A stretch of DNA of 64,000 bases, taken from assembly GCA_010015655.1 (NCBI GenBank), contig ML976726.1:336058-400057 (forward strand), read 5' to 3'. The notes beneath the pieces were generated by a model, which was given only the letters and a program-made list of their open reading frames with translations, was not told the origin of the DNA and ran no database searches. Shown piece by piece: positions 35,626 through 64,000 of the stretch. The position numbers and the translations under genes are program-made. Within the stretch, counting starts at the first letter, position 1; each line of letters starts with the position of its first letter. The DNA is from Bimuria novae-zelandiae CBS 107.79. Taxonomy: Eukaryota > Ascomycota > Dothideomycetes > Pleosporales > Didymosphaeriaceae.

Positions 35626-36040
35626 GGCTATCGTCAGCTCTCAACCCACGCTTCGTGACACTAACTTTATAAAATATATAAAATATATAAAATATAGTAA
35701 ATCTAACGCTAAAAAGCCTAATTTACTAGTAAATTTGCTACTTAATTAGAAACCTCTTAATATTAGTAATATATATATTTTTAGAGAGGCTAACTTACCT
35801 AAAAATATTAATTATAATAATTTAATTATTTTATTTTATTTATACTTCTCTACTAACATTATAAACTATACAGTATCCCCCGCAGGGCCTGAATCTGCCG
35901 TACACGGGCCACATATGAATGGCCAATTAGATGAAAGCGTTCGAAACCTCCAAACCTTGCATCGTGATGTCAGCAATTCCCAAAAATCGTCAATTACCAG
36001 CTAAAATAAACCTTTTTTAGAAGCTCTACCATCTGCAACT

Positions 36041-40288: not shown

Positions 40289-40738
40289 TGTTATGAGGCT
40301 CTCACACCTTAGTCCGGTCCGGGTTAGGGCGGTAAGGTATCGTGGTGCTTCACGGATTATTTAATAGTATAAGTTAATGCGACACTTAGCGCGGCTAGAT
40401 AATCTAATCTTATAATAAAGTAAAATAACTATTAGTCTGTATAGGAGAACGTACTCGCACAGAAGATATATAAGTTAACTACGAGGAGAGAAATAACATA
40501 GGAGAATTATCACACTATATACTAGTCTATTTCCTCCTTGTAGTTCCGCCAAGACTCTGTAGTCCCAGGGACTCTGGTAGTCCCATGGGACTTCCTTTTA
40601 TGCGGGACTTTATTACGTAACTACTAACATAAGCTACCCTGCGCCTCTTTATATTTTATTATTTTTACTATCCTGTTAATAATTACTTTCTTAGCGTAAT
40701 TACCTAGCTTCCTTCTTTTAGTCCTTGTAGTCGTAACA
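40289..40738 (-). repeat. Gypsy A 3' LTR
   Basis: 450 bp, the same length as its partner. The CACGTGAC motif of the partner is converted here to TACGTAAC, a RIP-type change. Confidence 0.9.
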
Positions 40739-40887
40739 CTATCCTCCTTTTTAAGGTTGTTGTCCTGACACCTTGCTTCGCTATACTATACCGTTGGCGC
40801 GTAGGTGCTAATTATTATAAAGGTGCGTCCCCCCCGCGTCCTAAGGCAGGCTATAGCCTCTCCTTAATTCCCCTCGCCTTACTAACT

Positions 40888-41331
40888 ATGCCGAGAACCC
40901 CTTATTCGTCCCTTGCGACCCGTCGTGCCCGTGCGTAAAAGGTAGAAGCTTAGGGCCTAAAGATAGCGTCTAGTTATAAGCGTTATTAGAAGAAAAAGTT
41001 GCGGTGTTTTATTAACGCTGCCTCTAGGCAGTATGCGGGCTGTCTCGTAGCCCATGCTAAATATAGTCTATAGATTCTTAAGAAGGATTGGGAGCGCGTT
41101 TAAAAGGAGAAGCGTAAAAAGCGCCTTAAGCTTCTTTATGCAAAGGAGCTAGCTACTCGCTTAGAGCGTGAATTAGTGGAGGTAGAGGAGAAAGAGCATA
41201 AGTATACTTAATATAACCTGCGCATAGCTAATGTAATTAAGGCGTTAGAGTAGCTAGAAGAAGATCTAAAGGGTACGACTAGTATTCGCGAACCATCGCC
41301 ACACGTACCTCTAAGGGCTAACTTAGGCTAG
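40888..41331 (+). pseudogene. Antisense ORF of Gypsy A: Zn2Cys6-like cluster plus coiled coil
   Basis: On the strand opposite to gag-pol, an ATG 149 bp inside the 3' LTR starts a 148-codon frame (MPRTPYSSLATRRARA) that ends with TAG at 41331. It is broken by seven TAA/TAG codons, each explainable by C-to-T or G-to-A from Gln or Trp. At 40975-41064 it reads YKRY, stop, KKKLRC, eight residues, YAGC, six residues, Y. With Tyr taken as mutated Cys this is CX2CX6CX8CX2CX6C, the Zn(II)2Cys6 spacing with the usual K-K-x-L-x-C signature. A coiled coil follows (KKDWERV, KEKRKKRLKLLYAKELATRL, ERELVEVEEKEHKY). The same design occurs in B-prime, B and C. Function is unknown; a DNA-binding regulator is inferred. 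Confidence 0.72.
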
Positions 41332-41339
41332 TTATAGGC

Positions 41340-44300
41340 TAACTTGTTTATTTCTTTTAACCCTTCCGTGTCCTTTAACCTCTTTAAGTTCCTTGCTAAT
41401 CTAGTCGCGGCGCCTTTAGATGTTCCTTGTGGAACTTCTCTAGCGCTGTCCTGTAGTTCGTGAGGTTTTGTACTAGTTCCTATATGTTGTGGTCCTCTGG
41501 CCATCCTTCCCACTTCACTAGATACTTGTACTGACGCCCGATTTCTTATAGGTCCCTAATGGCTTCGACCTCGTACTCCTCGTCCTCGAGTTCGAGTTAT
41601 GTTTCTAGTTCGGCATTTGGTGGTGCTGGTTCTAATAATAACTTGTGGAAGACTGGGTAGATTCGTGTATCTATAGGTAACTGTAGTTTAAAATTAACTA
41701 GTCCTCTAACCTCTTAAATTTTAAATAGTCCTTTTTAAAGGTTATCTAGTTTTTTGCTTAGCCTTGTTATCTTAAAAAATTTTTATAAGAGGAGGACTCT
41801 ATCCCCTTCCTTAAAAGTTAGTCCTATAATCTTTTTTTTATTTACCTATCGCGCTGTTTATTTATTACGCCGCGTAATATTCTCGTGTAGTGTCCTATGC
41901 AGGTCCTATATAAGTTTGGCTTTATTAGCTACGTTCTTCGCAATGCTCTAGATGTCTAATAGATCCCGGTAAGTCGTCGGCTCACATCCATGGTTGGCAT
42001 AATATGGCGAGTACCCCGTAGTCGCCGATCTTGCGCTATTGTATGCCAGCTAGGCTATTGGTAATAGCTCGACCTAGTTATCTTAAAGCTTATTTATATA
42101 CATCCGGAGATATTGTTCTAACGTTTAGTTTATTCGCTTAGTTTAGCTATTTATTTTAGGATAGAAGCTCGTCGTGAGCTTGTGCTTAATCCCTAATTTA
42201 GCTATAAACGTAGTCTAGTACAATAATATAAATATCTTGGCCCTATCTGTAATAAACTCGTTAGGTTGTCTAACCTGTAATATTAGTTCTTGTTTCACCA
42301 CGTAGGCTAGTTCTTCTGCTGACATAGCCTCCCTAATTGGCATAAACCTTAACTCCTTAGTAAGTTAATAGATTATAACTAGAATTAAGTCGTAGGGATC
42401 CTTGTTCCCTAGTGCTAGTAAGGCTAGTAACTTCACGATGAAGTCCATGGTTACGCTTAACTATGGTCTTGGGGGCGGCTTTAGTGGCTGTAAGAGGCTA
42501 TAGGGCTTATGTCTCTTAAGCTTATTCTTATAACAGGCTAAACAGTTACCTAAAACCTTCTATACCGCCTGGCGTAGCCTAGGGATAGTATATTCGTTTG
42601 CAATTTAACGCGTCGTTTTAGCAATCCCTAAGTATCCCTAATCCTTATCCTCGTGTAACTTTTTAATTAGCAGTAGAGCTATCTGCTTACTAATCTAAAT
42701 ATAGTTTTAATAGTCCCGTGCTATTAATTTCGTAGCTTAGTAGAGATTATACGCTTGGCAATCCTCGTCTATAAGCCTATTATAATCCTGTATCCCGTCC
42801 ACGACTGGCCTGTAATAGGCGAGATCCGCGCGCCATACTTCCAGTGCTGGCGTAAGCTATGTCTTATTATAGCGAAGGGTTCTATCCTTCGCGTAGGTTA
42901 GGATTATAATATAGTTACCACTATCGTCTTCTTCTACGAGGTTTAACTATCTACTAAGTGCATTTGCCATAGCGTTTGCGTTTCCTAGCAGATGCGTAAT
43001 ACGGAAGTTAAATTCTGCTATCTATTTAGACTATCTAGCCTGTCGCCGATTAAGCTTCTTAGTCGTTATAAAGCGGGTTAGATTAAGGTAATTAAAAAAC
43101 ACCTCTATCTAATACTTAGCTCCCTTAAGCTATACTTTCTATTATTTAAAGCAGTTAATAATAGCGAGTAATTCCTTATCGTAGATTTTATAGTTAAGCT
43201 CCGCTCCTAAGAGCTTTCTTGCATAATAAAAGACGGGTCTCTACTTCTAGTTATTGCATTCTTGTAGTAGTACAGCCCCTAACGTATAGTCCGATACGTC
43301 TGTGTAGATGCGGTGTTGCCGCTCCAGGTCGTATATCTATAGTAGGGGTGCCGTTAGGAATAGGCGCTTTAGTTATTTAAAAGCTTCCTTCTCTATTTCC
43401 TGCAAAGGACGCTATTTCCCTATCTTTATAAGTTCTATTAGTAGAGTGGTAACCTTTAAGTAGTTCCTAATAAATTTACGATAGAAGTTAGTAAAGCCTA
43501 AAAAGGATTAAATATTCTTTACTAATTCTAGTAGTAGCTATTCTTCTATTATCGCGATCTTCTTTAGGTCTATTTTAACACCTTCTCGGGATATCACAAA
43601 TCCCAAATATTCCGTCTCAGTAACATGAAACTCGCATTTCTTAGGGTGTAGGAGTAATCGATACTCCTGTAACTTTTGTAGTACTTTTCACACATGCTCC
43701 TTGTGTTCTTCCAGGGTCCTATATAAATATATTAGGATGTCGTCGAGGTACGCCGTGCAAAATACGTCTAAGTATTTATATAGTACTTAATTTATTAACT
43801 CCTAGAAGGTTGCTGGTGCGTTGGTTAGCCCTATAGGCATAACTATGTACTCGAAAAGGCCGTATCGCGTGCGGAAAGCCATTTTCCACTTGTACCCTTT
43901 TATAATTCGAATTCTATGGAATCTATTCTAGATATTAAATTTCGTAAAGTATTTAGCTCCTCGGAGTCTATCCATAAGCTCCGTTATTAGTAGTAACAGG
44001 TAGCGATTCTTAATCGTCACGGCGTTTAGCTATCTATAATTTACATAAAGTTATAGCCTGCCATCCTTCTCGCGAACAAAGAGTATAGGGAAGGCTGTAG
44101 GGCTCTAACTAGGCCGCTATTTCCCGGAGCGTAGGTTTTTCTAGATAAGCTCCTTTAACTCTTTTTCTTATTTATATGTAAGGAGCCTTAGGTGCTCTAG
44201 CTATAGCTTGGCTCCTTCTATTAATAGTATCTTATAATCCTATTCCTTATGTTCGGGTAGGATAGTCTCGTTATATTCCTTAAATAGGTCTGTAAATTCC

Positions 44301-46880
44301 TTATATTCTTCTAGTAGACTAGGGTTGTCTAGGACCATCTTAGTCGCCTAGACCTATATGCAGTATACCTATCCTAGGTATTACTTTAAGATCCTGTCTA
44401 TCTTGTATACTAATATTTCTTATATCTTAGATAGTTAGCTCTCCTTCCTCGCCTAAGGTTTTCGTAGAGTTTCCCTTCCACTAGGGCTCTCCTGAGCCAT
44501 CGCTAGTGGCCTTTAGGGAAGGATTATTTGTTTAATCTAGTCTATCTATAGATTGTGTTGCTCTAGCCATTCGTATCCTATAATGGCTTTAATGTCTCCC
44601 ATTTCTGCGATGGTAAAAACATGTTAGCTCTCTAGGCCTGCTATGTTAACTTATACCGGCGCCGTCTTAAGGCGTAGCCAACTATTACTATATCCTTACG
44701 ATCGGGTCCCGTTCGCGAGTCCTATTTATAGTAGTATCCTTTTGTTGCGATATAGCATATCGTATTTCTTAACCACTTATGGGGCGATTAGACACGCGTC
44801 TGCCCCTGGGTCGATTAGTGCTGTAACACGATGTCTATGCACCGTAATGTCTTTAATTAAGCGCTTCTTAACTCTACGAGTATCCACTTAATAAGCCATA
44901 ATAATCGCACTATCACTAGTGTGGCTCGTTACCTAGTAATAATTTAGTTTTTTAAGTCTTCAGATTCGTTTTAGACCTCCTATAAGGCCTTTACCTTTTA
45001 GATCTAACCTTTAAGTCGTGCTAGCTTTAAGACTTCCTTAATTTAGTGCCACTTATATTGCTATTAATATAGTGCATAGGTTTCTCTAATCCTATTAGGT
45101 TCGTATACTCTCGGTATCTCATGTTGCGGGCAGTTTAGAGTAAGGCACTCGTTTTAGGCTAATACGTTGTGCCCTAGGTAACTGTTTAAAGAAGCTGCTT
45201 CTTCTTATAGGCTCAGATATATAAAGCACTATAGGTTACATTGCTCTTACCTAATTAATAAGTAGTCCGCGTCTCTTCTTAGCTACGTACTCCTTATTAT
45301 TATGCTAGTGTCGCAAGGGCCTAAGCCCTAAGGGAACTAGCCTATTTTAAACTTTTATTACCTATGTACCTCGCAAGTAATATTAAAATATTAATACTAA
45401 CTATTCTATTTATAGTGCTTAGCCTAATAGGCTAAAAAGTGCTCGTGGCAATTGTTAGGCACGCTGCACTAGCTCTGCTTTAGCCTATAATATTCTAAAC
45501 CTCCTGGAAAATAGGAGGCCCTAACTCTAGCCTTAGAGTGTTGTCGGCATCCTTTGCGCGTGCATTGCCACCACTTGGCGTATTCATGTCGTTCCTGTAT
45601 CGTGATCTGGCGTAGGTATTACTTTAGGCGCCCTTGTAGTTTTTTCGCTAACCAGTAGGCGTCCCATGCGTATGCCCCTTGGACAATTACTTTTGCCTCA
45701 CACTAAGACAATTAATATAGCGCACTACTGCACATCCAGCAGGTGTCGTTAGCTAGTCTTTAGAAGATCTAGTACTTAGGAAGGGTCTTTCGTTCCTCTT
45801 CCTCTTTTATTAGCTCTAGGATCTCCTGCGTAAGATCTACTTCGTTGGCTTCTACCGGCGTGAGGGTGGCTATGGCCACTTATAGGAGGTTAGTCGTATT
45901 AATCTTGGTTTCCTAACCGTCGCAGTCTTTGGCGAAGTGGCCTTATTTACCACATTAGAGGCAGGCTTTATCTTTAAACCTCCGTTTTTATTCTTCCTGC
46001 AAGATACCGTTCTTGCCCTAGTAACTCTTCTTTAGTCTGTACGGCTGTTTTCCCTTGCCGTTTTTCTTTTTATACTATCGGGCTTTATTAGTTATAATAA
46101 TATCTCTATCCTGGTCTCTTCCTGCAGGCCTGGATCGATTTTCTTTTCTAGTAAGTAGCCTAGTACCGTGCTATTTCTCCAGCTTGCGTTCGTACAGGCG
46201 ATTATTTACTTTAATTATATTATTAATAAGTTCTTCTAGGTCGTTTGCTTTTCCTTAGTGGACTAATTTGTCTTTGACTAATTCTTTTAGTCTATTATAG
46301 TAGGCAATCATGAGTGGGGCTTCCCCCTATTTATTAAGTTCTACTACGATCTGTTTAAACTCCAGCGTATAGAGTACTGCCGATTTTTCCTGGCGCAGGC
46401 GCTGGAGGCGTAGTTTGGCTTAATATCCCTTATTAATAGTGCTAAATATTCCTTTTACGGCCTTGTAAAAGGACTCTTAGTCCTTAAAGGCGTCCTTAGT
46501 AGCGTCTAAGTTATAATCCTCTACTTTACTATTCTCGAGGAAGTTATTAATTATTAGTCTAGCCTACGCGGCTGCCTTGTCTTGTATATTTATATAGGTA
46601 ACTAGGATCTTATCTTATTCTATGTTAAACTTTCCTAGGTTATAGCAGATAAATAGTTCTATCTAGGTTAGGAACGTTCCTGGGTAGCCCTTTCTAGAAT
46701 AGGGTTTAGGCTTCGGGACCTTTAGTTAATGCTTCGCATTTTCCTATTAGCTTATCTTCTCGCTTATTTAGTTAATGATTTCCTATAACTAGGCTATCTA
46801 AGCCGCTTATTCGATAACTATCTCTCCTAGGGTCTTTTCCTTGGGTGCTGGAGCTGCGATGGTCAAACTAGGTCCTGCTA
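41340..46880 (-). pseudogene. Gypsy A gag-pol with chromodomain, RIP-mutated
   Basis: On the minus strand from right to left: gag with a CCHC zinc knuckle at about 45943-45968; protease ALIDPGADAC at about 44785-44825 (Asp kept); reverse transcriptase CTAYLDDILIY at about 43725-43760 (catalytic YLDD intact); RNase H around 43250-43300; integrase around 42900-42000; and a chromodomain at about 41390-41545 with QYKYLVKWEGWPEDHN. The last contains a TAG for Trp. Several catalytic motifs are intact but scattered stops make it non-coding. Chromodomains of this family guide integration to marked heterochromatin, which fits the nest of insertions. Confidence 0.85.
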
Positions 46881-46902
46881 TTATACTATAGGGTAGTTAA
46901 AG

Positions 46903-47352
46903 TGTTATAAGGCTCTCACACCTTAGTCTAGTCTAGGTTAGGGCGGTAAGGTATCGTAATGCTTTACAGATTATTTAGTAGTATAAGTTAATGCGACACT
47001 TAGCGCGGCTAGATAATCTAATCTTATAATAAAGTAAGATAACTATTAGTCTATATAGGAGAACGTACTCGCACAGAAAATATATAAGTTAACTACGAGG
47101 AGAGAAACAATATAGGAGAATCGTTACACTATATACTAGTCTATTTCCTCCTTGTAGTCCCGCCAAGACTCCGTAGTCCCAGGGACTCTGGTAGTCCCAT
47201 GGGACTTCCTTTTATGCGGGACTTCATCACGTGACTACTAACATAAGCTACCCCGCGCCTCTTTGTGTTTTGTTATTTCTATCGTCCCGTTAATAATTAC
47301 TTCCTTAGCGTAATTACCTGGCTTCCTTCTTTTAGTCCTTGTAGTCGTAACA
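46903..47352 (-). repeat. Gypsy A 5' LTR
   Basis: 450 bp, flanked on the right by CATAT. It contains CACGTGAC at 47228-47235 and an array of GGGACT/AGTCCC words at about 47155-47215. Confidence 0.9.
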
Positions 47353-47357
47353 CATAT

Positions 47358-47536
47358 CCTAGCCTCATGGGATCCCATAGGATATCCTGGGACGTCACGT
47401 GACTAGGGTCACGTGGTCCTATAATGTCCTATAGTCTTGGCGTCTAAGATAGCCTGGGACGTTACGTAAGCCTAAGGTAGGGCCTAGTTATTATCATAAG
47501 ATCTATAATCTTACCTTTAACTTCTAGACTATAATA
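47358..47536 (-). repeat. Second half of the Gypsy C LTR
   Basis: It continues the LTR interrupted at 40288 and matches the reverse complement of the solo LTR at 29575-30004 (shared blocks CACGTGAC, CTTGGCGT, AGCCTG). It ends CTATAATA, a RIP form of GTCATAACA. Confidence 0.75.
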
Positions 47537-47544
47537 TTATCCAC

Positions 47545-47976
47545 TGTTAGGATCCGTTGAAACCCCAACATGATGCGGGGCGGGGCAAGGAGACTTATCC
47601 GTGCAACCAGCCAAGATTCCTGACTTAGCTACGAATCACGTGACTTAGTCACGCGTCCCAGAAATATCGGGCGTCCCAGAAGTATCTTGGCACATGGGAC
47701 TTTGGGACTCCTGGGACTTATGGGATCCATGGGACTAGTCATGTATATAGGGACGCGATAATAGTCTTCTATTATCGTGTCTAATCTGTTTATTAATCTA
47801 TTATTTAGATCTAAGAAGTAATCTTATTAATTTAATTATGCTATATATATTTTTAATACTAATATCCTAGTAATAAGCGCAAGCTATTACTATACCTTTT
47901 TATTTATATTACTAATACTCTTACCTAAAAACTAACCTTAGCCCTTTAGGACTAGCTATCCTTTTAGGATTTAACA
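47545..47976 (+). repeat. Gypsy B 5' LTR
   Basis: 432 bp. U3 carries CACGTGAC (47637-47644) and an array of GGGACT, CGTCCCAG and GGGATCC words (47655-47745). The last 190 bases are homologous to the B-prime LTR, the first 240 are not. The 3' half is AT-converted. Confidence 0.88.
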
Positions 47977-50900
47977 TTTTAAATACCCTTAACATAAGCG
48001 TCAACGATACCTTTTTTTACTAATATAATAAATACTAAAATAGATACTCTTAATAGAATAGGCATTACTATAGCTAGAAAAGGAACTAAAAGCTTTTATA
48101 AAAAGCTTAATTTCTTCTATAGTAAACGTAATTATATAGAACTATAGATCTTGCAACTTAACCTATACTTTTATAAAATAAAGAAAGAATAGGAAGATAC
48201 TAATAAGACTATATTTACTTTTACCTATATAAAGGGAGATACTTTTTAAGTAGATTCGTCTTTACGTTAATTAATACCTATCTAGAGCTAATATAGAAGT
48301 CGACGCTATAGATAAGATTATAAAAAATTATAATACCTTTTATATTAAGGTTAAATAATATTTTAAAATTACGACTAGAAAACTATCGCTAAACGAAATA
48401 TTAAATAACTTAGACAAATCTATTTAGTAGCTAAATATAAATTTAAGTTCCTTAAGAATGCCAATTAAATTATATAAAATAATAATAGTCTTATAACAAT
48501 ATTCTAAAAAGAATTAAAATAGTATATACGTAAAGAACTATTGCATAGCGGAGTAAAGACTAATACCTTAAAGGAACTTATAGTAGAAGTAACTTAAATT
48601 AATAATAAATAGTATAAATTAGAACAAGACCTACGCTAGAACTAAAATAGAAAGGGCTATAGGCTACCTACGATAAAAGATAACTATTATAACTTTAAAT
48701 AGTAATTATAGTAGAAAAACTAAGCTAATTATAGTTACTAACTAATAGAAGGGATCTAGAACTATTAAGTTAACGTAATAGAGAAAAGAATAGGAAAGGC
48801 AAAAGGCTTCTATAAGCCTAAATAAGGACGTACCCCCGATGGAACCTACAAGCAAGGGACTGGGACACGACTTTACTATACATGTGGCAAACCGGGCCAC
48901 ATAGCCAGGAACTGCAGATCTAAGAACAAGATTTCTAGGCAGCTAAACGTACTAACTATTAATAAAAAAGAAATAACTAATAAAGAATAGCAGGTAGTAA
49001 ACACTATTAAATAAATTAATATCTATAATAAGGACTTAGAATAATTAAGGTTACTTAACTTATAACTCTATGAGGATGCATACGAAGGTTTAAAAAAAAA
49101 GAGCTAATACCTTAATTTCTTACACCTTACCCTAGCTAGAGTAAACTAGTTACTAGTAAAATAATAATCGTTTTCGACTTCTTAGAGGAACACTAACTAA
49201 GAGAAAAAAACTTTAGTTTTATAGTAATAAAATAATAAGACTATATAGTAGTATTTTACTATATATATTAACCTAATCTAGTTAGTAAGGCAGCATGTGA
49301 AATAGTAGATTATTATTACGCCTATAAAGACCTTAAGAAGAAGTACCTAAACAAAAACCTAAACTACAAACTATAGTACGACCTAGACTACCGTAACCCT
49401 ACGCACGGTTCTCTACGATAGACCCTCTATAGAGAAGATTAATATACCTTTTATTACTAAGCTAAGGAATATAGTTACTTTCCCTAAATATATCGCAAAT
49501 ATAGATAGGAGTAGTTTAACTACCCTATTACTAATTATAATATTTATCTTTAGGATAAATATAAAACACGATACTTTTTACACTTTAACTAAGTAATTAA
49601 CTAAGTAATATTGTTACTAGTTAACAGAAAATACGCGTTAAATATATAGTAAACGTGCTTACACCCTAACTATAAAGAATATAGGGAACAAAAGAAAAAG
49701 TACGGATTTAATTATATATTAAAAGGGACTACGACCCTTAAGATTAAATTAGTAATAAAAAAAGAAGATAGTAAAGCTTCCCTAGAAAAGGCTTAATAGT
49801 AGCTCTAGGAGAAGAATAGAGAAGGACACCTTAAACCTATAAAACTAGTAATAAAGAAAATGTGTTTTTTAGACCTAGACTTAGGCGGGAAGACGCCTTT
49901 AAAAAAAGTAAATACTACTAATAGTTAGGTATTAATTACGCTACTAGTATAGCTTAAAGAAATATAGATAAAAGCCATGCTAGACTTAGGAGCACAAGAG
50001 AACTATATATTAAAAAAAGCACTTAATAAAGCAGGACTCTACAAGCGTAAGAAGGCCATACCCTATGCTATTTATATTACGAATAGGTAACTAATGCCTG
50101 GTAAAGCAACAATCGAATACAAGGTTAAGATAACTATTACGATTTATAGATACTAGGAATTAATTACCCTTAATATTATTAAGGAAGCTAACAACAATAT
50201 AATTTTAAGATTACCCTAGTTAAGGAAGCATAACCCTATAATTAACTAAGAAAAATAAATACTATTCTTTAAGCGCTGTAACTACGCGTTATATGTAAGG
50301 TCTACGCATTAATAAATATAATAGTAAATAAAAGAGCTATTAATAATATATTCTTGCAATTAAAAGTTAATAAACACGAAATTAACTTAGTAGACGCTAA
50401 TAGGAACTACTAAGTTATAAAGCGTAAGTATAATAAGAATAGCACGTCTCTTAATAATCCTAATAAATATAAAGAATAGAGTTATTTATTTTAGGAATAG
50501 AAAGGAGTAAAAGCCCTTCCTAAACATATATATTAAGATTATTATATTATTTTTAAAGAGGGAAAAACGCCGCCCTTTAGACTACTATATAGCTAGAGTA
50601 AAAAAGAACTCTAATAGACACGTAAATTCCTAAAGAAAGCCCTTAAAAAGTAATAAATACGTAAATTAGAATTGCTAGTTGCATTACCCTTAATATTTAC
50701 TACAAAGAAGGATAGAATATAACGTCTATACATTAACTAAAGAAAACTAAACAATATAATAATTAAAAATAAATACCTACTACTAAATATATAAGAATCT
50801 TAAGACAGACTAGGACAAGTAAGGATATTTATATAATTTAACCTATAAGATAGATACCACCTTATACGGATAGTAGTAGAAAATAAGTAGAAAATAGTCT

Positions 50901-51747
50901 TTCGAACTAGATATAGACTATTTAAGTACTAAGTTATGCCCTTTAGACTTACGAACGCACTAGGAACATTTTAAGTAATAATTAATAACGTACTAAGGAA
51001 ATACTTCAATATATTTATAGTTACCTACCTTAATAATATTCTAATATTCTTTAAGTAAGAAAAAGATCATGTGCAACACGTATAAATAGTATTATAAATA
51101 CTAAATAGCGCTAACTTATAATTAAAACAAAAAATATATAAATTCTATATTATAGAACTAGAGTTCTTAGGATATGTTATTAATACTAAAGGTATTAAAG
51201 TAAGTCCTTTAAAAATTAAGGAAGTAAGAAAGTAGAATACACTTACTCACTTTAAAAAATCATAAATATTCCTTAAATTTAGTAGATTTAATAGATAATT
51301 TATCACGGACTACTTAAGGATTACACTACTATTCACGAACCTTATAAAGAAAGATAGACCCTTTAACTAGATAACAAAATACGAATAAGTATTTAAGACA
51401 CTATAAGAAGTATATATTACACCACTAGTCCTTATGCATTTTTAAAGCAACAAACTATTACGTATTAAAATAGATGTAAGCGACTTAGTAGTTAGAGTAT
51501 GCATGAAGTAAGAGAAGAATAGTAAATAGTACTTAATTGTATATTACGCACACAAGTTTACACCAGAAGAGTTATAGTATAAAGTACATAATAAAGAACT
51601 ACTAGCAATAGTAAAAGCTATAAAATACTAAAGGATCTATGCACATAGCTGCTTAGAACCTACTATTTTTATAAATTATAAGAACTTTATACGTTTTACG
51701 ACTATAAAAGAACTAACTTAACGATAAGCAAGATAGTAAAAGATATT

Positions 51748-52203
51748 TGTTAGGATCTGAACGAGCGGCAGTAAAGGAGGGCCAACGGCGGCCATGGCGG
51801 GGTAACCTATAGTGGGACCGCACTACCGAGGTCACGTGATGTACCCTCACGCCAAGCCACACCATCACGCCAAGACAGTGATGGCAGTACCATCACTAAT
51901 GCCAGTACCATCAGACCAAGGTCATGATGGCACAAAAACGGGTGATGACAGAAGAAAGCCTACGGGTATATAGAAAGCTCGAATATCCCTCTAGATATGC
52001 GTGTTTAACCTGTTTATTAATCTATCGTTAGGATCTGAATAAGCAACCTTGTTGATTTAATTATACTATACACACCTTTAATACTAACGCCCTTAGTAAC
52101 AGGCGCAAGCTATTACTATAACCCTCTCCTGTCTTACTAGTACTCCTGCCCGAGAACTAACCTTAGCCCCTTAGAGAATAGCTACCTCTTTAGGATCTTA
52201 ACA
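51748..52203 (+). repeat. Gypsy B-prime 5' LTR
   Basis: 456 bp; CACGTGAT at 51833-51840. The first 263 bases are unrelated to the Gypsy B LTR apart from the terminal TGTTAGGATC; the last 193 are homologous. An internal array of CATCAC, GCCAAG and AGTACCATCA words lies at about 51845-51935. Confidence 0.9.
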
Positions 52204-52204
52204 T

Positions 52205-55200
52205 CTTAAACACCCTTAACATAAGTACTACTAGGACCCCTACCTCTTCTATAGCTTCGGACAACCACGTCACCCCTATAGGGGATGGCAAGAACAAGGC
52301 ACACAAACCTAACTTATATAATAGTAACCATACCCTCCTTAACACCTAACTATTACAACTAGACCTCTACTTCTTTAACTAAAACTAAGACCTTAAAGAT
52401 AAAAAGAAGGTTATCTTCGCAGCGACCTATATGCAAGGAAGCGCTAAAGAATAAATCTATCCTTACCTAGTTAAATACCTAGACATGGATCACGATAACG
52501 AGGATAAAGACTACATTAACAGCAACAAAGATGCTATCAATATTATTAAGGACTACGCCAACTTCAAGAAATGCCTCTAATAGATATTTAGAATTACTAA
52601 TAAAACCGCTATCGCTAAGCGTGCGATCTAGATAATCTGATAGCAATAATCCGCAGCTAAGTATGCAGTCGAATTCCGCAAGTACGCTATATAACTTAAC
52701 TAAGAGGATAAATCTCTTAAAACAATATATAAATAAGGACTTAAACGCAACGTGCGCGAAGAACTACTACGTAGTAGTGTAAAAGTAAAGACCCTAAAAG
52801 AACTATACAAAGAGACTATCCACATTAATAGGGAATAATTTGCCTTGTAAGAAGAATTCCGCAAGAATCTAAGGAACGTTAGTTTCAGACGACAGGCACC
52901 TATAGTCTACAAGGCGCTACTAAAAACACCTCGACGCCAGCAACGCAACTATTACGGGCCCTAACCTATAGAAGATATTTAGTTTAACAACCTAGAAAAG
53001 GAAACAGGAAAAGTTACAGGCTTCTAAAAGCCTAATTAACGTATCTTAGATAGAACCCGACGATAGGGGACCGAGACGCGTAAATGTTTTATATATAGCA
53101 AACTAGGCTACATAGCCAGGAACTGCAGATCTAAGAACAAGATTACTAGGTAACTAAACGTACTAACTATCAACTAAGAAACAACCGACGAAGAATAGCA
53201 AGTAATAAACGCCATTAAATAAGTTAATATCCACAACAAAGAATCGGAACGATTAGAGTTACCTAACTTATGACTCTACGAGGATGCATATAAAAGTTTA
53301 GATAAGAAAGAGAAGGAGCTAACACCTTAATCTCCTACACCTTACCCTAGCTAGAGTAAACCTATTACTAGCAAGACGACGAATGTTTTCGACTTCTTAG
53401 AAAGATACTAACTAAGGGAAGGAGACTTCGGGTTTATAGTAATAAAATAACAAGACTATATAGCCGCATTTTACTACGCCTACTAACTTAATCTAGTTAG
53501 CAAGACAGCACGTGAAATGGCAGACTATTGCTATACCCACGAAGACCCTAAAAAGAAGTACCTAAACAAAAACCCGAACTACGAACTATAGTACAACCTG
53601 GACCACCGCAACCCTACGCATAAGACTATACAATAGACCCTCTACAGAGAAGATTAATGTACCCTTTATTACCGAGCTAAGGAATACAGCTACTTTCCCC
53701 GAATATACCAACGATGCAGATAGGAGTGGTTTAACTACCCTATTAACTATTACGACGTTCACCTCTAGGATAAACGTAAAACGCAATACTTTTTACACCT
53801 TAACTAAGTACTAAACTAAGCACTATTGCTACTAGTTAATAAAAAATACGCGTTAGATAAATGGCAAACATGCTTACACCCTAACTATAAGGAACACAAG
53901 GAGTAAAAAGAAAAGCATGGGTTTAATCGCGTACTAAAAGGGACCACGACCCTTAGGATTAAAAGAGTAATAAAGGAAGAAGACGGTGAAGCTATCCTAG
54001 AAGTGGCCTAGTAGCAGCCTTAAGGGAAGAAGAAGGAAGGACACCTTAAACCTACAGAGCTAGTTACAAAGAAAATGTCTTTTTTAGACCTAGGCTTAGG
54101 CGAGAAAACGCCTTTAAGGAACTAAATGCTATAAATAGTTAAGCATTAATTAAGCTACCGGTATAGCTTAATAGAACATAGATAAAGGCTATGCTGGATT
54201 CTGGGGCGTAGTAGAGCTACATGTCCCGAAGTGCACTTGATAGAGCCGGACTCTATGAGCGCAAGAAGGTAGTAGCATACGCTATCTATGTCGCGAATAG
54301 ACAACCCATGCCAGGCACGCCACGAATAGAGTACGAGGTCGAGACGACACTTAAGATCTATGGACACCAGGAACCGATTACCCTTGACATACTAGAGGAA
54401 GCCAATCACGATGTGATATTAAGACTACCCTGGTTTAAGAAGTACAACCTAACAATTAACTAGGAATAACGAAAGCTATCCTTTAAGCACTACAACTATG
54501 CATTGTAAGTAAAGCCTATGTATTAATAGAGTATAATAGTAGATAAGAGAGCTATTAATAATATAGTCTCGCGATTAGAAGTCGATAAACACGAAACCAA
54601 CTTGGCAAACGCTAGCAGGAATTACCAGGTTATAAAGCGTAAGCACGAAGAGAATAACACACCTCTTAATATCCCTAATAAATATAAGGAATAGAGTTAT
54701 TTATTTTAGGAAGAGAAAGGAGCCAACGCCCTTTCTAAGTATATATACCAAGATTATCGCATTGTTCTTGAAGAGGGAAAGACGCCACCCTTCAGACCAC
54801 TATACGGACAAAGCGTAAAAGAACTCTAATAGACACGCGAATTCCTAAAGAAAGCCCTTAAGAGGTAATAGATACGTAAGTTAGAATCGCTAGTAGTATC
54901 ACCCCTGATATTTGTTACAAAAAAGGATAGAACACAACATCCATGCATTATCTATAGAAGGCTAAATAACATGACGATTAAGAATAGATACCCACTACCG
55001 AATATACAAGAATATCGAGACAGGCTAGGACGAGCCAAGATATTCACATAATTTAACCTATAAGACGGATACTACCTCATACGAATAGCAGAAGGTGACG
55101 AGTGGAAGATAGCCTTTCGAACCAGATATAAACTATTTAAGTACTAAGTTATGCCTTTTGGACTCACGAACGCACCAGCAACGTTCTAAGTAATAATTAA

Positions 55201-57480
55201 TAACGTACTAAGGAACTACCTTAACATATTTATAGTTGCCTACCTCGACGACATCCTGATATTCTCTGAACAAGAGAAGGATTATGTATAATACGTATAA
55301 ACGGTACTACGAGCACTAGACAGCGCCAATCTACGATTAAAACTTAAGAAATATAAATTCTATGTCACAGAATTAGAGTTTCTAGGACATGTTATTAATA
55401 CCAAAGGTATCTAAGTAAGCCCTTCGAAGATTAAGGAAGTAAAGAAGTAGAAATTACCTACTAACCTTAAGAAAGTATAAGCCTTCCTTAGATTTACTAG
55501 ATTTAATAAATAGTTTATCATAGACTACTCTAGAATTACGCTACCACTTACGAACCTCACAAAGAAAGACAAACCTTTTAATTAGACAAAAGAATGCAAG
55601 CAAGCATTCTAAACGCTATAGAAAGTATGTATTACGCCACTAGTCCTTATACACTTCCAGGATAACAAACCCCTGCGTATCAAAATAGACGCAAGCGACT
55701 TAGTAGTTAGAGCATGCGCGAAATAAGAGAAGAATAGTAAATAGCACCTAATTATATACTACACACACAAGTTTACACCCGAAGAATTACGATACGAAGT
55801 ACACGACAAAGAACTACTTGCGATTATAAAAGCCATTAAACACTAGAGGATCTACGCATATAGTTACTTGGAACTTACAATCTTCACAGACTACAAAAAC
55901 CTCACACGTTTTACAACCACGAAAGAACTAAACCAACGACAAGGAAGATAATCAGAAACACTAGGACAATACAAATTTAAAATTGTATACACCCCAGGCA
56001 AGGAAAACGGACGAGCAGACGCTTTTAGCAGAATAAATAATAATAAAGAAAAGGTTAAAACCTACTCCGTAATACTAAAGAAGAATCCTAACGGTTCCCT
56101 AGAACTAACGGCAGAACTTAATTAACTCCTTGTACTTACACGAGAAGTACCTAAGGAACAACAGACAGAGGTTATATAATAATACCACGACGACCCTGTA
56201 TATAGACACCCTGGAATTAGAAAAACAATAGAGCTAATCCAAAGGAACTATAGCTTCAAAGGAATTAAGGAAGCAGTAATAACCTATATACGCAAATGCG
56301 TAAATTGCCAGCGCAACAAACACGCAACACATCCTAAGTACAGAGAAATACAAGCTATCCAGATACCTACAGCACCATAGGAAGACATCGTAATAGACTT
56401 TATCACAGAATTGCCAAAGTTAAAGGATCCCACAAACAGAGTAAGTTACAACGTAATACTAGTAATCGTGTGTAGATTTACTAAATATATGGAATTACTA
56501 TCGTGCAAAAAGGTAATAACAGCAACGGAACTAGCGTTCCTTATCCTAGATTAACTTATACGACATCATGGCATTCCCAAGACAATTATTAGCGATAGAG
56601 ACAAACTCTTTACTTCGAACTACTAGACAACACTCATAGCACTTATTAGAACGAAACGAAAACTATCAACAGCATACCACCTACAAACGGACGGACAAAC
56701 AGAACGTACGAATTAAACAATAGAGACGTACCTACGCATCTACTGCAACAACTAGAAGAATAACTAGACTTCCCTATTACTAATGGCATAATTAGCATAT
56801 AATAACAAGATATTAGTAGTAACTAGATATACACCGTTCTATGTAAACCACGGAAGACATCTACATCTCTTTAATTAGATATTTCTTACTACTATTAGAA
56901 CGGAAGAAGCCATCAACACGGCTATAAAAATAAAAGAAATATATCAATAACTCTAAGAGAACCTTAAGAAAGCTTAACAGCAAAGCATTTCCTACACGAA
57001 CTAAAAAAGAAAAATGGCACCTTAGCTAAAGAAGGGGGATAAAGCATATCTGCTTACGAAAAATCTTCGAACCTAGAAGAAAAAGCATAAGAAACTAGAT
57101 TATATTAAGGTCGGGCTATTTTTCATTTCCGAACAAATATCACCGGTCAACTACTAATTAGAATTACTACCAGACGCCAAAATACACCTAGTATTCCATA
57201 TAGACCGATTAGAACCAGCGGACCTAGAGACACTAGTCGAAACCACCTTCTATCACCAGCCAGAAGAAGAAACCGAATTCGAAGTTAAAAAGATACTATA
57301 ACACACGGATTAGCCACGAACCTACCTAATTAAATGGAAGGGATATCCACACTTAGAAAACACATAGGAACTAGAAGCAAACCTTAGAAACTGTCGCTAA
57401 GCGTTGGCGCAGTACCATCGTTAAACCAAGAAGCAAAAGCAGCGGGAGGAGAACCAGTTAAGAACTTATTAAGAAGAAGA
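52205..57480 (+). pseudogene. Gypsy B-prime gag-pol with chromodomain, RIP-mutated
   Basis: Plus strand: gag; zinc knuckle CFIYSKLGYIARNCRS at 53088-53135 (Cys and His positions mutated); protease LDSGA at about 54195-54210 followed by an open stretch 54221-54463 (MSRSALDRAGLYERKK, LPWFKKY); reverse transcriptase YLDDILIFS at about 55243-55270 intact; RNase H KIDASDLVVRA at about 55680-55715; integrase zinc part with HPGIRKTIELI and CVNCQRNKH (56208-56325), then VIDFITELPKL, RFTKYMELLS, ISDRDKLFTSN, LQTDGQTERTN (56390-56720); and a chromodomain with YLIKWKGYPHLENT at about 57325-57368. Many catalytic residues persist, but CAA/CAG and TGG stops are frequent. Confidence 0.88.
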
Positions 57481-57995
57481 TCCATCGACGGATCGAGAGG
57501 AAGATTGTTGGCCTGTGACCAGCCTGGATCAGCGAAGAGATCGACGTCTCGGGACGGAATGGCCACACTCGAGCTATCCGCCTCTTAAGTCCGTTGCACC
57601 TTTGCTATCGCCAAATCCCGACGCGCAAATTCCTGTTCACGACTCCTTACCTCTAATAACTCTACGTCACTCTTAGCAAGGCGAGCGCCTATCGACGCAG
57701 CCTCAGCCTTTAGACAAGCAATCTCCAGCTCCTTCTCACGTTTTTCCTGCTCCACCTTTTCCCATTCCTCTTTGGGAACGAACAATTCGCAATCAGCGCT
57801 TACGGCGATACAACCAACGCAACAACCAGACGCGGTATCCATAAAACACCGCAAGTTTTTCTTTGTACATCTTTCGCAGCAAAATACTATTTCTTTTAAC
57901 GACGCACAAACGCGAGCAGCACGATCGTGTCGTTCTTAGGTTAAAGTCTTTTTGCGAGGCGCGCGCGCTTTACGGGGCTTAGAATCCTTTAGCAT
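57384..57995 (-). pseudogene. Antisense ORF of Gypsy B-prime: Zn2Cys6-like cluster plus coiled coil, nearly intact
   Basis: On the minus strand, opposite to gag-pol, an ATG at 57995 (129 bp before the 3' LTR) opens a 204-codon frame ending at 57384. Only two codons are stops (positions 20 and 137, both TAA, one C-to-T step from CAA). Residues 1-30 are basic (KPRKARAPRKK). All six cysteines stand: C40, C43, C50, C59, C62, C69, spacing CX2CX6CX8CX2CX6C, with CERCTKKNLRC as first half and CVGCIAVSADC as second. Residues 75-125 form a coiled coil (KEEWEKVEQEKREKELEI, LAKSDVELLEVRSREQEF). The tail (WSQANNLPLDPSMDLLLNKF) is unlike anything I know. The order zinc cluster, linker, coiled coil is that of fungal C6 regulators. 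The 3' end overlaps the end of pol tail to tail. The region is much less damaged than pol. Role inferred only. Confidence 0.78.
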
Positions 57996-58124
57996 AGTTA
58001 GGGAGGCAATCAGTTTCAGAACAAAATTAGGACAGCCTACGGTATTTATGTTCGCTAGCCACTTATGCAGCCACAGGGCACGGCGCAGGGATATCGGGAC
58101 GATATCTGGAAGGAGGGGAGGTGA

Positions 58125-58580
58125 TGTTAGGATCTAAACGAGCGGCAGTAAAGGAGGGCCAACGGCGGCCATGGCGGGGTAACCTATAGTGGGACCGCAC
58201 TACCGAGGTCACGTGATGTACCCTCACGCCAAGCCACACCATCACGCCAAGACAGTGATGGCAGTACTATCACTAATGCCAGTACCATCAGACCAAGGTC
58301 ATGATGGCACAAAAACGGGTGATGACAGAAGAAAGCCTACGGGTATATAGAGAGCTTGAATATCCCTCTAGATATGCGTGTTCAACCTGTTTATCAATCT
58401 ATCGTTTAGATCTGAATAAGCAACCTTGTTAATTTAATTATGCTATACACACCTTCGATACTAACGCCCTCAGTGACAGGCGCAAGCTATCACTACAACC
58501 CTCTCCCGTCCTACCAGTACTCCTGCCCGAGAACCAACCTTAGCCCCTTAGAGAATAGCTACCTCTTTGGGATCTTAACA
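58125..58580 (+). repeat. Gypsy B-prime 3' LTR
   Basis: 456 bp, near-identical to 51748-52203. Read on the minus strand, its U3 lies just upstream of the antisense ORF starting at 57995 and may serve as its promoter. Confidence 0.9.
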
Positions 58581-60124
58581 ATATTAGGATAGTATAAATT
58601 TAAAATTATATACATCCTAGGTAAAGAAAACGGACGAGTAGATACTCTTAGTAGAATAAATAATAAAAAAGAAAAGGTTAAAATACTCTTTATAATATTA
58701 TAATAAAACCCTAATAGTTTTTTAGAACTAACGGCTAAACTTAATTAACTCCTCGTACTTACACGGAAAGTACCTAAGGAACTATAGATAGAAATTATAT
58801 AATAATACCACGATAACCTAGTGTACGGATACCTAGACATTAGAAAGATAATAGAACTTATCTAGCAGAACTATAGCTTTAAAGGAATTAAAGAAGCAGT
58901 AACTATATATATCCGCAAATATATAGATTGCTAACGTAACAAGTATATAACACACCTTAAGTATAGAGAGATATAAGTAATCTAAATACTAGTTACACTA
59001 TAGGAAGAAATCGCTGTAGACTTTATTATAGGATTACTAAGATTAAAAGATCTTATAACAGGAATTAGCTACAACGCAATACTAAATAGTATCTATTAAT
59101 TTATTAAATACGTAGAATTACTACTATATTAAAAGATAACTATAGTAAAGGAACTCGCATTCCTTATCCTAGATTAACTTATATAATACTATAGTGTTCC
59201 AAAGATAATTATTAGTAATAGAGACAAACTATTTACCTTAAAGTACTAGATAACACCTATAGCACTTATTAGAATAAAACAAAAACTATTAACAGTATAT
59301 TATCCGCAAACTAACGAACAGACAGAACGTACGAATTAAATAATTAAAACGTACCTATGCATCTACTACAACAACCAGAAGAATAACTAGATTTCTTTAT
59401 TATCTATGGCATAGTTGGCATATAATAACAAGATATTAGCAGTAATAGGATTTACACTATTCTATACAAACTACGAAAGATACTTATATCTCTTTAATTA
59501 AACACTTCCTGCAGTAATTAAGATAGAAGAAGTAATAAATATAGTAAAAACTATAAAGAAAATATATGCACAACTCTAAGAGAATCTTAAAAAAGCTTAA
59601 TAGTAAAGTATTTCCTATATAAACTAAAAAAAGAAAAAAGGTACCTTAGCTAAAAAAGGGGGATAAAGCATATCTGCTTACGAAAAATCTTTTAACCTAA
59701 AAGAAAAAGCACAAGAAACTAGATTATATTAAAATTGAACTATTTTTTATTATTAAATAAATATTACTAATTACCTACTAATTAGAACTACTACTAGACG
59801 CGAAAATACACCTAGTATTCTACGTAGACTAACTTAAACCTATAGACCTTTAGATACTAGTCGAGACAACATTCTATTATTAGCTAGAGGAAGAAAATAA
59901 ATTCAAAGTTAAAGTAACTTTAAGATATAAGGAAGTTAAGTAAAAAGATTTTTAAAATAATAAGTTTTTATAAGAATAGTTAGTTAAGTAAAAGGGATAC
60001 CTATACTTAAAAAATATATAAGAACCTAAATCTAAACTTTGCAAGAACTGCTAACAGTTCTTAAAGAAAACGCGAAACAAGATCTATAATTACTACTACT
60101 ATACTAAAATAACGCGAGAAAGCT

Positions 60125-60700
60125 TTAAAGGAAATAAAACTTATAATATAATAATACTAAAAGAAAATACTATACGGCAGAAGAGGAAGGCTTTAACTAA
60201 ATAATAGACTAGTCTATTACCTTAGCACCTAAAGTAGTATTAGGATTAACTAACACTATTACCTAAGCTAGTTCCTTACGAGCCTCTAAGGCTTCTAACT
60301 TATTTATAGTAGACATACTATAATTAAACAACTCTTCTTCCTTTTAATATAACTTCTTGCGCTAATTACGTAAACGCGTTATCTTTTCTCGTGCTAGACA
60401 AGCACGTAAGAGCGCTGCATAAGCGAGCTCCTCTTTTACCTAAAGTTTCACCTCCTCCTTAGCCTTTAACTTTTCTAACTTTTCTAACTTAGTATTAATT
60501 TTTAAATAATTTAATAAAGGAATATCCTCTAGCTTATACTTTTAATTACTATACTAAATATAATTCGTGTACTTTAAGTATAGTAAAGATAGTTAGCAGG
60601 ACAGTTACTTCTTAGTATAGTACGTATAAGTAACTATAATAAATATATAACTTTACTTAAGATAATTAGCTTACAAATAAAAATATTAGGTGGATTAGGA
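60125..60700 (-). pseudogene. Antisense ORF of Gypsy B: mutated Zn2Cys6-like cluster plus coiled coil
   Basis: On the minus strand between the end of pol and the 3' LTR. The cluster is at 60536-60628: YTYY, T, KK, stop, LSC, eight residues, YTNY, seven residues, Y, i.e. CX2CX6CX8CX2CX7C when Tyr is read as mutated Cys; one Cys codon (TGC) survives. In the same frame follow KYKLEDIPLL and a coiled coil (KLEKLEKLKAKEE, KEELAYAALLRACLAREKI, INKLEALEARKELA), ending at 60125. The start is not determined, and 60700 is approximate. Stops are Gln- or Trp-derived. Confidence 0.62.
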
Positions 60701-60757
60701 AAGCGGCTTTATAAGTAGTTAACTTATAAGGATATTAAGTCTAGAAGAGGGAGCTAA

Positions 60758-61189
60758 TATTAAGATCTATTAAAACCTTAATATAATGCAAGGCGGGGTA
60801 AGGACACTTATCTATATAACTAGCTAAGATTCCTAACTTAGCTATAAATTACGTGACTTAGTTATGCGTCCTAGAAATATTAGGCGTCCTAGAAGTATCT
60901 TGGCATATAGGACTTTGGGACTCCTGGGACTTATAGAATCTATAGGACTAGTCATGTATATAGGGACGCAATAATAGTGTTCTATTATTATATTTAACTT
61001 ATTTATTAATCTATTATTTAGATCTGAAAAGCAACCTTATTAATTTAATTATACTATACACACTTTTAATACTAACGTCCTAGTAATAAGCGCAAGCTAT
61101 TACTATATCCCTCTACCTATATTACTAATGCTCTTGCCCCAGAACCAACCTTAGCCCTTTAGGACTAGCTACCCCTTTAAGATTTAACA
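60758..61189 (+). repeat. Gypsy B 3' LTR
   Basis: 432 bp, aligned end to end with 47545-47976; right flank TCCTC. RIP has changed its CACGTGAC copy to TACGTGAC. Confidence 0.88.
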
Positions 61190-61207
61190 TCCTCCTCCTT
61201 CCTTTGC

Positions 61208-61648
61208 ATGTCCCTATATAGTAGCTAATATTCTTTTAGAGTATCCTTTATTATTATTCCGTTAAAGACTAAATAAACTTAGTTAATTAGATAGCTATAG
61301 TGTCTTATAAGTGCTACGCGAAGAAGGGCTTAACTTATAAGCTATTTTTTTAAGGCGTAGTGTAGTAATTATTATAAAAATAGTATTATAAAGTATAAGC
61401 TACTAGAACCCGTGGTTCTTAACATCTTTTAAATTAATTTTAAAATAGATTGGCTTAAGCGCCTAGAAGAAGTAATAGTAGTTAAGAAAAAAATAGCTAT
61501 AGTAGTCCTTTAAGCTACTTATGCTAAAAAGAAAAAGTTATTAAAATAAAAGCATCTACTTAAGGAGCGTAAGAAGAGGCTTCTTACTAACTTAATAAAA
61601 TTTATTAAGAAGATTAAGCGCCTTAAGGGGCTAGAAAAGTTAGGCTAA
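61208..61648 (+). pseudogene. Antisense ORF of Gypsy C: mutated Zn2Cys6-like cluster plus coiled coil
   Basis: A 147-codon frame from ATG 61208 to TAA 61648 lies at the place and on the strand (opposite to pol) of the 148-codon ORF of Gypsy A. In it CSNYYKNSIIKY fits the second half of the cluster (CX2CX7C). The first half, YKCYAKKGLTY (CX2CX6C with K-K-x-L-x-C), lies just before it in the next frame, so a one-base indel in the T run near 61345 is likely. A coiled coil follows (DWLKRLEEVIVVKKK, KHLLKERKKRLLTNL, KKIKRLKGLEKL). Many RIP-type stops. Confidence 0.55.
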
Positions 61649-61699: not shown

Positions 61700-64000
61700 T
61701 AGGCTACTTTTCCCCCGCCCTTTAACCCTAATAATTTTAAACCTTTAGCCTTAGCTTCTTTAAATATTTCTAATAGAACCTCTCTAAGGCCTCTTTATAG
61801 TTAGTAAGATTTCTTACTAGTTCTTATATATTATAGTTCTCTAGCTATTCTTCCTACTTTACTAGGTACTTGTACTAATATTTAATTTTTTTTATAGATT
61901 TCCAATTACTTTAACTTTATACTTTTTATTCTTAAGTTCTAGATGCGATTCTAATTTAGTGTCTAGTAGTACTAGTTCTAATAATAATTTATAGAAGACT
62001 AGGTGTATACGTGTATTTATAGGTAATTATAGCTTAAAATTTACTAGTCCTTTAGCTTTTTAGATTTTAAATAGTCCTTTTTAAAGATTATTGAGTTTTT
62101 TACATAGTCTTATTATCATAGATATTTTTGTAAGAGGATAACTCTATCCCTTTTTTTATTTTTTTTTTATTTTAAAATTAGTCTTTTAATTCTTTTCTTA
62201 TTTGCCTATCTTACTATTTATTTATTACGTTATATAATATTTCTACGTAGTGTTTCGTGTAGATCTTATATAAGTTTAGCCCTATTAGCTATATATTTTA
62301 TAATACTTTTAATATCTAATAGATCTTAGTAAGTTATTAGCTCACATTCGTGATTAGCGTAGTATAGCGAGTATCCTATAGTCGCCGATCTCGTGCTATT
62401 GTATGCTAGTTAGGCTATTAGTAATAGTTTAACTTAATTATCGTAAAGCTTATTTATATATACCTAAAAATACTATTCTAACGTCTAATTTGTTCGCTTA
62501 GTTTAGCTGTCTATTTTAGGATGGAAGCTTGTTATAGGCTTATGTTTAATTCCTAATTTAGCCGTGAACGTGGTCTAATACGATGATGTAAATATTCTAG
62601 CCTTATTTATAATAAACTTATGTAGTTGTCTAACCTATAATATTAGCTCTTATTTTACTATATAAGCTAATTCTTCTATTAATATAGCTTTTTTAATTAG
62701 CACGAACCTTAACTCCTTAGTTAGTTAATAGACTATAACTAAGATAGAGTTATAGGGTTCCTTATTCTTTAGTGCTAATAATGCTAGTAATTTCACAATA
62801 AGATCTATAGTTACGCTTAACTATAGTCTTAAGAGTAGCTATAATAGTTATAGAAGGCTGTAGGGCTTATATCTCTTAGGCTTATTTTTATAATAGGCTA
62901 AATAGTTACCTATTACCTTCTATACCGCCTGGCGTAGCCTAGGGATGGCATATTCGTTCGCGATCCTACGCGTTATTTTAGTAATCTTTAGGTGTCCCTA
63001 GTCCTTATCTTTGTATAGTCTTTTAATTAGTAGCGGGGCGACCTACTTACTAATCTATATCCTGTCTTAATTATCTCGTGCTACTAATTTTATAGCCTTA
63101 TAAAAATTATATGCTTATAAATCTTTATTCTTAAGTTAGCTATAATCCTAAAAGTCCTTTATAAGTAGTTTATAATAAGTAAAGTCTACGCGTTGTACTT
63201 CTAGCATTAGCGCGAGTTACGTTTTATTATAGCGTAATATTCTATTATTATCTTTAGTAAGGACTGTATTATAGTTAAAGTTACTTTCCTCTTTTATAAG
63301 ATCTAATTATCTACTAAGAGTGTTTACTACTCTATTAGTTATTCCTGCTAGATAGGTAATGTAAAAGTTGTATTTTACTAATTATTTTAACTATTTAGCT
63401 TATTTATAATTTAGCTTCTTTATTATTATAAAGCGCGTAAGGTTTAGGTAGTGTAAGAATACTTCTACCTAATATTTTACTCCTTTAAGCTACGCTTCCT
63501 ATTACTTAAAGTAGTTAATAATTACTAAAAGTTCTTCATTATAGATCTTACTGTTAAGCTTTACTCCTAAGAGCTTTTCAGAATAGTAGAACACTAGTCT
63601 CTATTTCTTATTATTATATTCTTATAGGAGTATGGCTCCTAGCGCATAGTCTAATGCGTTATTGTATATGCGATGTCGCCGCTCTAGATTATATATTTAT
63701 AGTAGTGGCGGCATTAGGAATAAGCGCTTTAGCTTTTTAAAGGCTTTCTTTTTTATTTTCTACAGTAGTCGCCAATTGCTAGTTTTTATAAGTTCTATTA
63801 ATAGGGTAATTGTCTTAGAGTAGTTCCTAATAAATTTGCAATAAAAGTTAGTAAAGCCTAAAAAGGATTATATATCTTTTACTAATTTTAATAATAATTA
63901 TTCTTTTATTATTATAATCTTCTTTAGATCCACCTTAACACCTTCTTAGGATATAATAAATCCTAAGAATTTCGTTTTAGTAATATAAAACTTATATTTC
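61700..64000 (-). pseudogene. Gypsy C pol C-terminal part, heavily RIP-mutated, cut by the window end
   Basis: The minus-strand remnant aligns in order with Gypsy A 41350-43650: chromodomain region at about 61790-61880, integrase 62000-63250, RNase H and the start of reverse transcriptase from about 63500. The catalytic YLDD region is beyond the window. Stops are denser than in Gypsy A, so this copy has decayed further. Confidence 0.75.

Follow-up and report, generated by a model that had tools for sequence, protein, structure and literature searches.

A conserved antisense gene between pol and the 3' LTR of Ty3/gypsy chromoviruses in Bimuria novae-zelandiae encodes a Zn2Cys6-like protein and probable regulator

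The window analysed here (64,000 nucleotides of contig ML976726.1, positions 336,058 to 400,057, assembly GCA_010015655.1, from the fungus Bimuria novae-zelandiae CBS 107.79) contains copies of four retrotransposon families with long terminal repeats (LTRs), called A, B, B-prime and C. Each carries, on the strand opposite to pol, a candidate cysteine cluster of the kind found in Gal4-type (Zn2Cys6) regulators, which in A and B-prime belongs to an accessory gene between pol and the 3' LTR. LTRs and element halves were placed by self-BLAST of the 64-kb window, and the 77.4-Mb genome was searched for further copies. Many of the sites concerned appear to have been hit by repeat-induced point mutation (RIP). 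The features are as follows.

40289-40745, minus strand (pol of A is on this strand): A 3' LTR, from self-BLAST; partner LTR at 46903-47360 (92.4% identity)
40888-41420 (right end approximate), plus strand: A antisense gene, starting from the ATG at 40888 and interrupted by stops; profile match at 40900-41361
40975-41064, plus strand: A six-site cysteine cluster (YKRY*KKKLRC...), from the motif scan; tyrosine at RIP-hit sites
41402-42199, minus strand: A pol 3' end; includes a chromodomain (32.5 bits against the Pfam Chromo cut-off of 25.1) and runs convergently to the antisense gene
51748-52203, plus strand: B-prime 5' LTR, from self-BLAST
56300-57440, plus strand: B-prime pol 3' end; carries the C-terminus of the integrase and a chromodomain (Pfam Chromo 36.8 bits)
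57384-57995, minus strand: B-prime antisense gene; ATG to conserved stop spans 203 codons, with two in-frame stops in this copy
57789-57878, minus strand: B-prime cysteine cluster (CERCTKKNLRC...C..C......C), from the motif scan; six of six cysteines present
58125-58580, plus strand: B-prime 3' LTR, from self-BLAST (95.4% to its 5' partner); the antisense transcript may originate here
59000-60060, plus strand: B pol 3' end, from self-BLAST and pol alignment; B is interrupted by the B-prime insertion
60200-60760, minus strand: B antisense region, heavily RIP-mutated; third-position transversion bias in the motif frame
60536-60628, minus strand: B cysteine cluster (CX2CX6CX8CX2CX7C), from the motif scan; most sites tyrosine
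60760-61190, plus strand: B 3' LTR, from self-BLAST (84% to 47547-47977)
61189-61202, minus strand: C polypurine tract, by eye; start of similarity among C copies
61306-61400, plus strand: C cysteine cluster, from the motif scan; first half YKCYAKKGLTY at 61306, second half in the next frame
61850-63992, minus strand: C pol 3' part, from self-BLAST and pol alignment; convergent with the antisense region

B-prime is nested inside B, whose LTRs lie at 47547-47977 and 60760-61190 and whose halves are 48887-51735 and 58585-59913. A and B-prime are Ty3/gypsy chromoviruses, with LTR pairs, an integrase and a C-terminal Chromo domain above the Pfam cut-off. In the pol frames of B and C that were tried, a chromodomain was not found, only an integrase SH3 domain below its cut-off; both pol sequences align to those of B-prime and A.

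Both strands of the window were scanned for the motif [CY]X2[CY]X6[CY]X6-9[CY]X2[CY]X6-8[CY], with tyrosine allowed. Full matches occurred only at 40975 on the plus strand (A) and, on the minus strand, in a host Zn2Cys6 gene at 24824, in B-prime at 57878 and in B at 60628, and half-motif matches only in A, B and B-prime and at 61306 on the plus strand (C). The scan thus bears out the cluster positions that the initial annotation had given for the four elements. Its claim of a common six-site spacing stands for A, B and B-prime, but not for the window copy of C, where the two halves need a frame shift. The antisense frame is longer than the 148 (A) and 147 (C) codons given there; in B-prime it runs from the ATG at 57995 to a conserved stop at 57386-57384, and the window copy is broken at 57938 and 57587.

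A profile of 25 public proteins homologous to the B-prime frame matched B-prime at 57498-57995 on the minus strand (E 3.1e-56) and A at 40900-41361 on the plus strand (E 3.5e-35), the next window match being the host Zn2Cys6 domain at 24741-24824 (E 0.81). Judged by these matches, the A and B-prime antisense genes encode one homologous protein. At least 150 relatives of the B-prime protein, from 325 candidates, were scored in the genome, and 228 public homologs were found at E <= 0.01, of which 120 were listed; those that are named come from Pleosporales. One of them, P0027 from Exserohilum turcicum (251 amino acids), has two cysteine clusters in tandem.

We examined 46 copies, comprising eight from a search with A DNA, the 30 best of 150 B-prime hits and eight of the other 120, hand-picked to span identities; the A and B-prime sets each include the window's own copy. 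In all 46 flanks pol is on the other strand and its 3' end faces the antisense gene, 39-292 bp from the matched part. This agrees with the earlier placement of the clusters opposite pol. The 3' LTR side was checked for A, B and B-prime in the window, and the distance from LTR to ATG is 130-143 bp in B-prime and A. For C, the further claim of a position beside the element's own 3' LTR fails, since the adjoining LTR (60760-61190) is the 3' LTR of B. The convergent order in 46 of 46 copies and the LTR side of the three window elements fit the arrangement behind the analogy with Retand and HBZ drawn below, in which an antisense open reading frame separates pol from the 3' LTR. The matched part starts with ATG in 36 of the 46 copies (36 of 37 among the B-prime-like), and an equivalent stop follows 35-42 codons past the match in 29 of the 37 B-prime-like copies; a thirtieth stop match, 349 codons on, was discarded as spurious. 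The matched part is free of stops in two of the 46, therefore open copies exist.

Over these copies the cluster codons (n=276) comprise 233 TGY, 43 TAY and no other. Cysteine is present in 33-36 of the 37 B-prime-like copies at every site, and in 2, 0, 7, 6, 6 and 3 of the nine A-type copies at sites 1 to 6. The copies establish the gene, its place and orientation and the conservation of its six cysteines. The proposal that tyrosines are RIP-mutated cysteines is well founded for most sites; it finds no support at site 5 of C (cysteine in 0/35 copies) or at site 2 of A, which rests on analogy because cysteine occurs there in none of the nine A-type copies.

The A/B-prime antisense protein is under purifying selection, as the initial annotation had suggested. 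In eight copies with at most one stop (28 pairs), the ratio of nonsynonymous to synonymous substitution rates (dN/dS) was 0.13-0.42 in 27 pairs and 0 in the remaining, near-identical pair. Fifteen pairs from six of the eight copies (all but one near-duplicate and one short copy) were simulated 200 times each with matched numbers of transitions and transversions in uniform or RIP context. Simulated means were 0.61-0.86, and the observed value lay under all 200 simulations in 13 of the 15 pairs; in one further pair 3/200 simulations were as low, and in another 46/200. RIP causes no transversions, and transversions per site at codon positions 1, 2 and 3 were 0.229, 0.168 and 0.371 between A and B-prime and 0.070, 0.050 and 0.097 within the B-prime-like copies (related pairs pooled in both). 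Conserved starts, stops and cysteines and homologs in other Pleosporales genera likewise speak for selection. All four families have elevated RIP indices at their loci, A, B and C the highest; the window B-prime gene is little affected (TpA/ApT 1.07 vs 2.07-2.25 in A, B and C).

For B and C, 35 copies per family were taken, 15 from search loci and 20 of the next 25 listed places. The full motif is present on the antisense strand, in one frame, in 30/35 B and 21/35 C copies and the half motif in 30/35 and 31/35, respectively; none of these 35 B and 35 C copies has it on the other strand. In two-base-block shuffles (20 x 15 copies per family) the full motif arose by chance in 0.7% for the B region and 0% for the C region. 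TGY codons occur at sites 1 to 6 in 1, 1, 4, 24, 2 and 9 of the 35 B copies and in 18, 10, 1, 2, 0 and 6 of the 35 C copies, and codons that are neither TGY nor TAY make up 5/210 in each family. In B, columns with a transversion common to at least three copies are distributed 12/2/0 by phase and peak in the motif frame's third position (p 8e-5); when two copies suffice, 18/30 are third-position (p 0.002). In C the corresponding figures are 9/17 (p 0.08) and 16/33 (p 0.05). Based on motif counts and transversion phases, B and C therefore look like the same design in ruins, firmly so for B, where selection is also supported by the codon-phase test, and only suggestively for C, where that test is weak. 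In the window (61160-61202) the C copy has no 3' LTR of its own at the polypurine tract and the B 3' LTR abuts there, as if B had inserted at this junction; in 13 of 15 C loci another common sequence abuts the tract at the position of 61189 (by eye).

Antisense regions were also compared by transversions only. For each comparison, eight copies of either family gave 64 pairs, with 40 shuffles each. A and B-prime (median z 14.2) and B and C (median z 7.2) exceeded all shuffles in 64/64 pairs, and the remaining comparisons were at or near noise: A with B, z 2.2 (22/64); A with C, 1.4 (3/64); B-prime with C, 0.9 (1/64); B-prime with B, -0.1 (0/64). By this measure, the A and B-prime antisense genes share ancestry, as do those of B and C. 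No homology of the B/C proteins to the A/B-prime type was detectable. The design recurs as first described, but the four elements do not count as independent cases. Pol ends, compared in the window copies, group differently (A with C, z 71; B with B-prime, z 70; the rest 14-26). Own pol type accompanies own antisense type in 9/9 A and 35/37 B-prime-like copies (two being nearest B) and in 14/15 B (one without a hit) and 15/15 C loci. These comparisons of four families, for which no tree was built, suggest that the antisense gene follows a family tree other than that of pol. The two pairings would not arise from unequal rates alone; they would if the pol-LTR segment had been exchanged, or if two gene versions had been retained for a long time.

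Outside the retroelements, the host Zn2Cys6 gene (minus strand, 24720-24830) matches PF00172 at 43.4 bits, and an open frame at 36005-37951 resembles, by eye, a piggyBac-type transposase; positions 36450-37439 of it read as N in the sequence analysed.

The protein has about 200 residues, with a basic N-terminus, the Zn2Cys6-like cluster, a long coiled coil and an acidic-aromatic disordered tail; in 60 full-length proteins this tail has a net charge of -7, 24% W/F/Y/L/M and 1.6% K/R. The Zn2Cys6 consensus of PF00172 is CX2CX6CX5-12CX2CX6-8C, and 123 of 131 public proteins have exactly CX2CX6CX8CX2CX6C, which lies within it. Among these 123, E stands at position +2 in 100, K at +3 in 114, L at +5 in 120 and R at +6 in 117; of the K-K-x-L-x-C signature initially reported for all four clusters, the double K is therefore not general. 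The curated Pfam Zn_clus cut-off of 21 bits was not reached (B-prime, 13.4 bits); in set A3, 17/21 members match Zn_clus at E <= 1 (best E 7.1e-4). AlphaFold models show a helix after each cysteine pair and a further long helix. They match, weakly but nearly exclusively, the structures of PUT3, GAL4, HAP1 and PPR1, with PUT3 and GAL4 as the top, weak Foldseek hits, and 12 of 13 VIA-align entries are Zn2Cys6 domains and none a zinc knuckle. A Gal4-type binuclear fold is thus predicted only. The suggested kinship with C6 regulators is favoured by cysteine spacing, predicted fold and weak profile matches, but not by a Pfam match above cut-off.

We propose, with a probability of roughly 0.6, that the Ty3/gypsy chromovirus accessory gene, antisense between pol and the 3' LTR, encodes a Gal4-type regulator, most likely of the element's own LTRs; stated more broadly, the elements are likely to carry a regulator that acts on their own genes or on those of the host. 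This proposal is based on the profile matches, the genomic copies and public homologs, the cysteine and selection data, the fold matches, the tail, the coiled coil, the convergent placement in 46/46 copies and the different pairing of antisense gene and pol. A promoter within the 3' LTR or next to it would give rise to an antisense mRNA, whose product would enter the nucleus, dimerise, bind DNA and regulate transcription, most likely from the LTRs of the element, either by activating it or by timing and limiting copy number. LTR self-regulation draws no support from CGG pairs, inverted or everted, which show no enrichment upstream or near the element's own LTR; this result bears on DNA binding only indirectly. 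It would fit a Gal4-type factor that chiefly targets host genes or chromatin, or counters silencing, and benefits the element indirectly, and the fold and composition evidence suits such a factor equally well. Linkage beside pol in every copy examined is what one would expect of a self-regulator, though it is compatible with host action, and we regard this alternative as unlikely.

There are retroelement zinc modules, the zinc knuckle among them, that bind nucleic acid but have no part in transcriptional control. With this precedent, and as the gene adjoins the chromodomain end of pol, its product might instead be an accessory module that serves the particle or integration (an RNA/DNA chaperone or chromodomain-linked targeting factor) with no role in transcription. 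The antisense orientation would exclude the gene from the gag-pol RNA, the acidic-aromatic tail and coiled coil suit a regulator, and the matched structures are Zn2Cys6 domains rather than zinc knuckles, which makes this explanation improbable. That the antisense frames are functionless products of chance or copying might be argued from the broken state of all four window copies and the rarity of stop-free ones (2/46). It is contradicted for A/B-prime by dN/dS, below neutral and RIP-like simulations in 14/15 pairs, and disfavoured by the third-position transversion bias and by conservation across genera; although the contradiction does not extend to C, we consider this explanation very improbable overall.

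If the regulator proposal is correct, many Pleosporales database proteins labelled 'hypothetical' or 'Zn(2)-C6' would be retroelement genes and not host regulators, which is an annotation issue; a small element-encoded Gal4-like factor would make fungal transposon self-regulation directly testable with yeast tools, and the regulator, if lineages exchanged it, would offer a striking example of modular evolution in retroelements. The wider proposal, that an element-encoded antisense Gal4-type factor controls the LTRs, that this module was swapped between lineages, leaving regulator and polymerase with histories of their own, and that the design was reached three times (in HTLV, Retand and fungi), is tentative, and we would rate it slightly below even odds.

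A description of this antisense gene was not found in our literature search. An extra open reading frame has been described in fungal chromodomain elements, among which the Pyggy clade includes Pyrenophora and Alternaria elements. With the fungal Zn2Cys6 regulators (Gal4, Put3, Hap1 and Ppr1; PF00172) the protein shares the CX2CX6CX8CX2CX6C spacing, the helix after each cysteine pair, the coiled coil and the basic and acidic flanks. It differs from them in its score below the Pfam cut-off, its size of about 200 residues, its antisense location in a retroelement and the E-E between the second and third cysteines in most public members. HBZ of human T-cell leukemia virus type 1 (HTLV-1) is a basic leucine zipper (bZIP) protein with a promoter in the 3' LTR. 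Like the proposed fungal product, for which these properties are predicted, it is a nuclear dimerising regulator from an antisense gene near the 3' LTR; unlike it, HBZ is a bZIP and not a Zn2Cys6 protein and belongs to a human retrovirus. PMC11963269 describes HBZ as a nuclear antisense protein and, in the plant Ty3/gypsy element Retand, TRP28 (PF04195), whose gene follows pol, precedes the 3' LTR and runs antisense to gag-pol; it is present in 97% of clusters of recent Retand elements, and the protein is predicted to bind DNA. Retand elements differ from the fungal ones in being plant non-chromoviruses with a differently named domain and a pol-LTR region of 2.9-6.6 kb, compared with about 0.8 kb in B-prime, whereas antisense orientation, position between pol and the 3' LTR and predicted DNA binding are common to TRP28 and the fungal gene.
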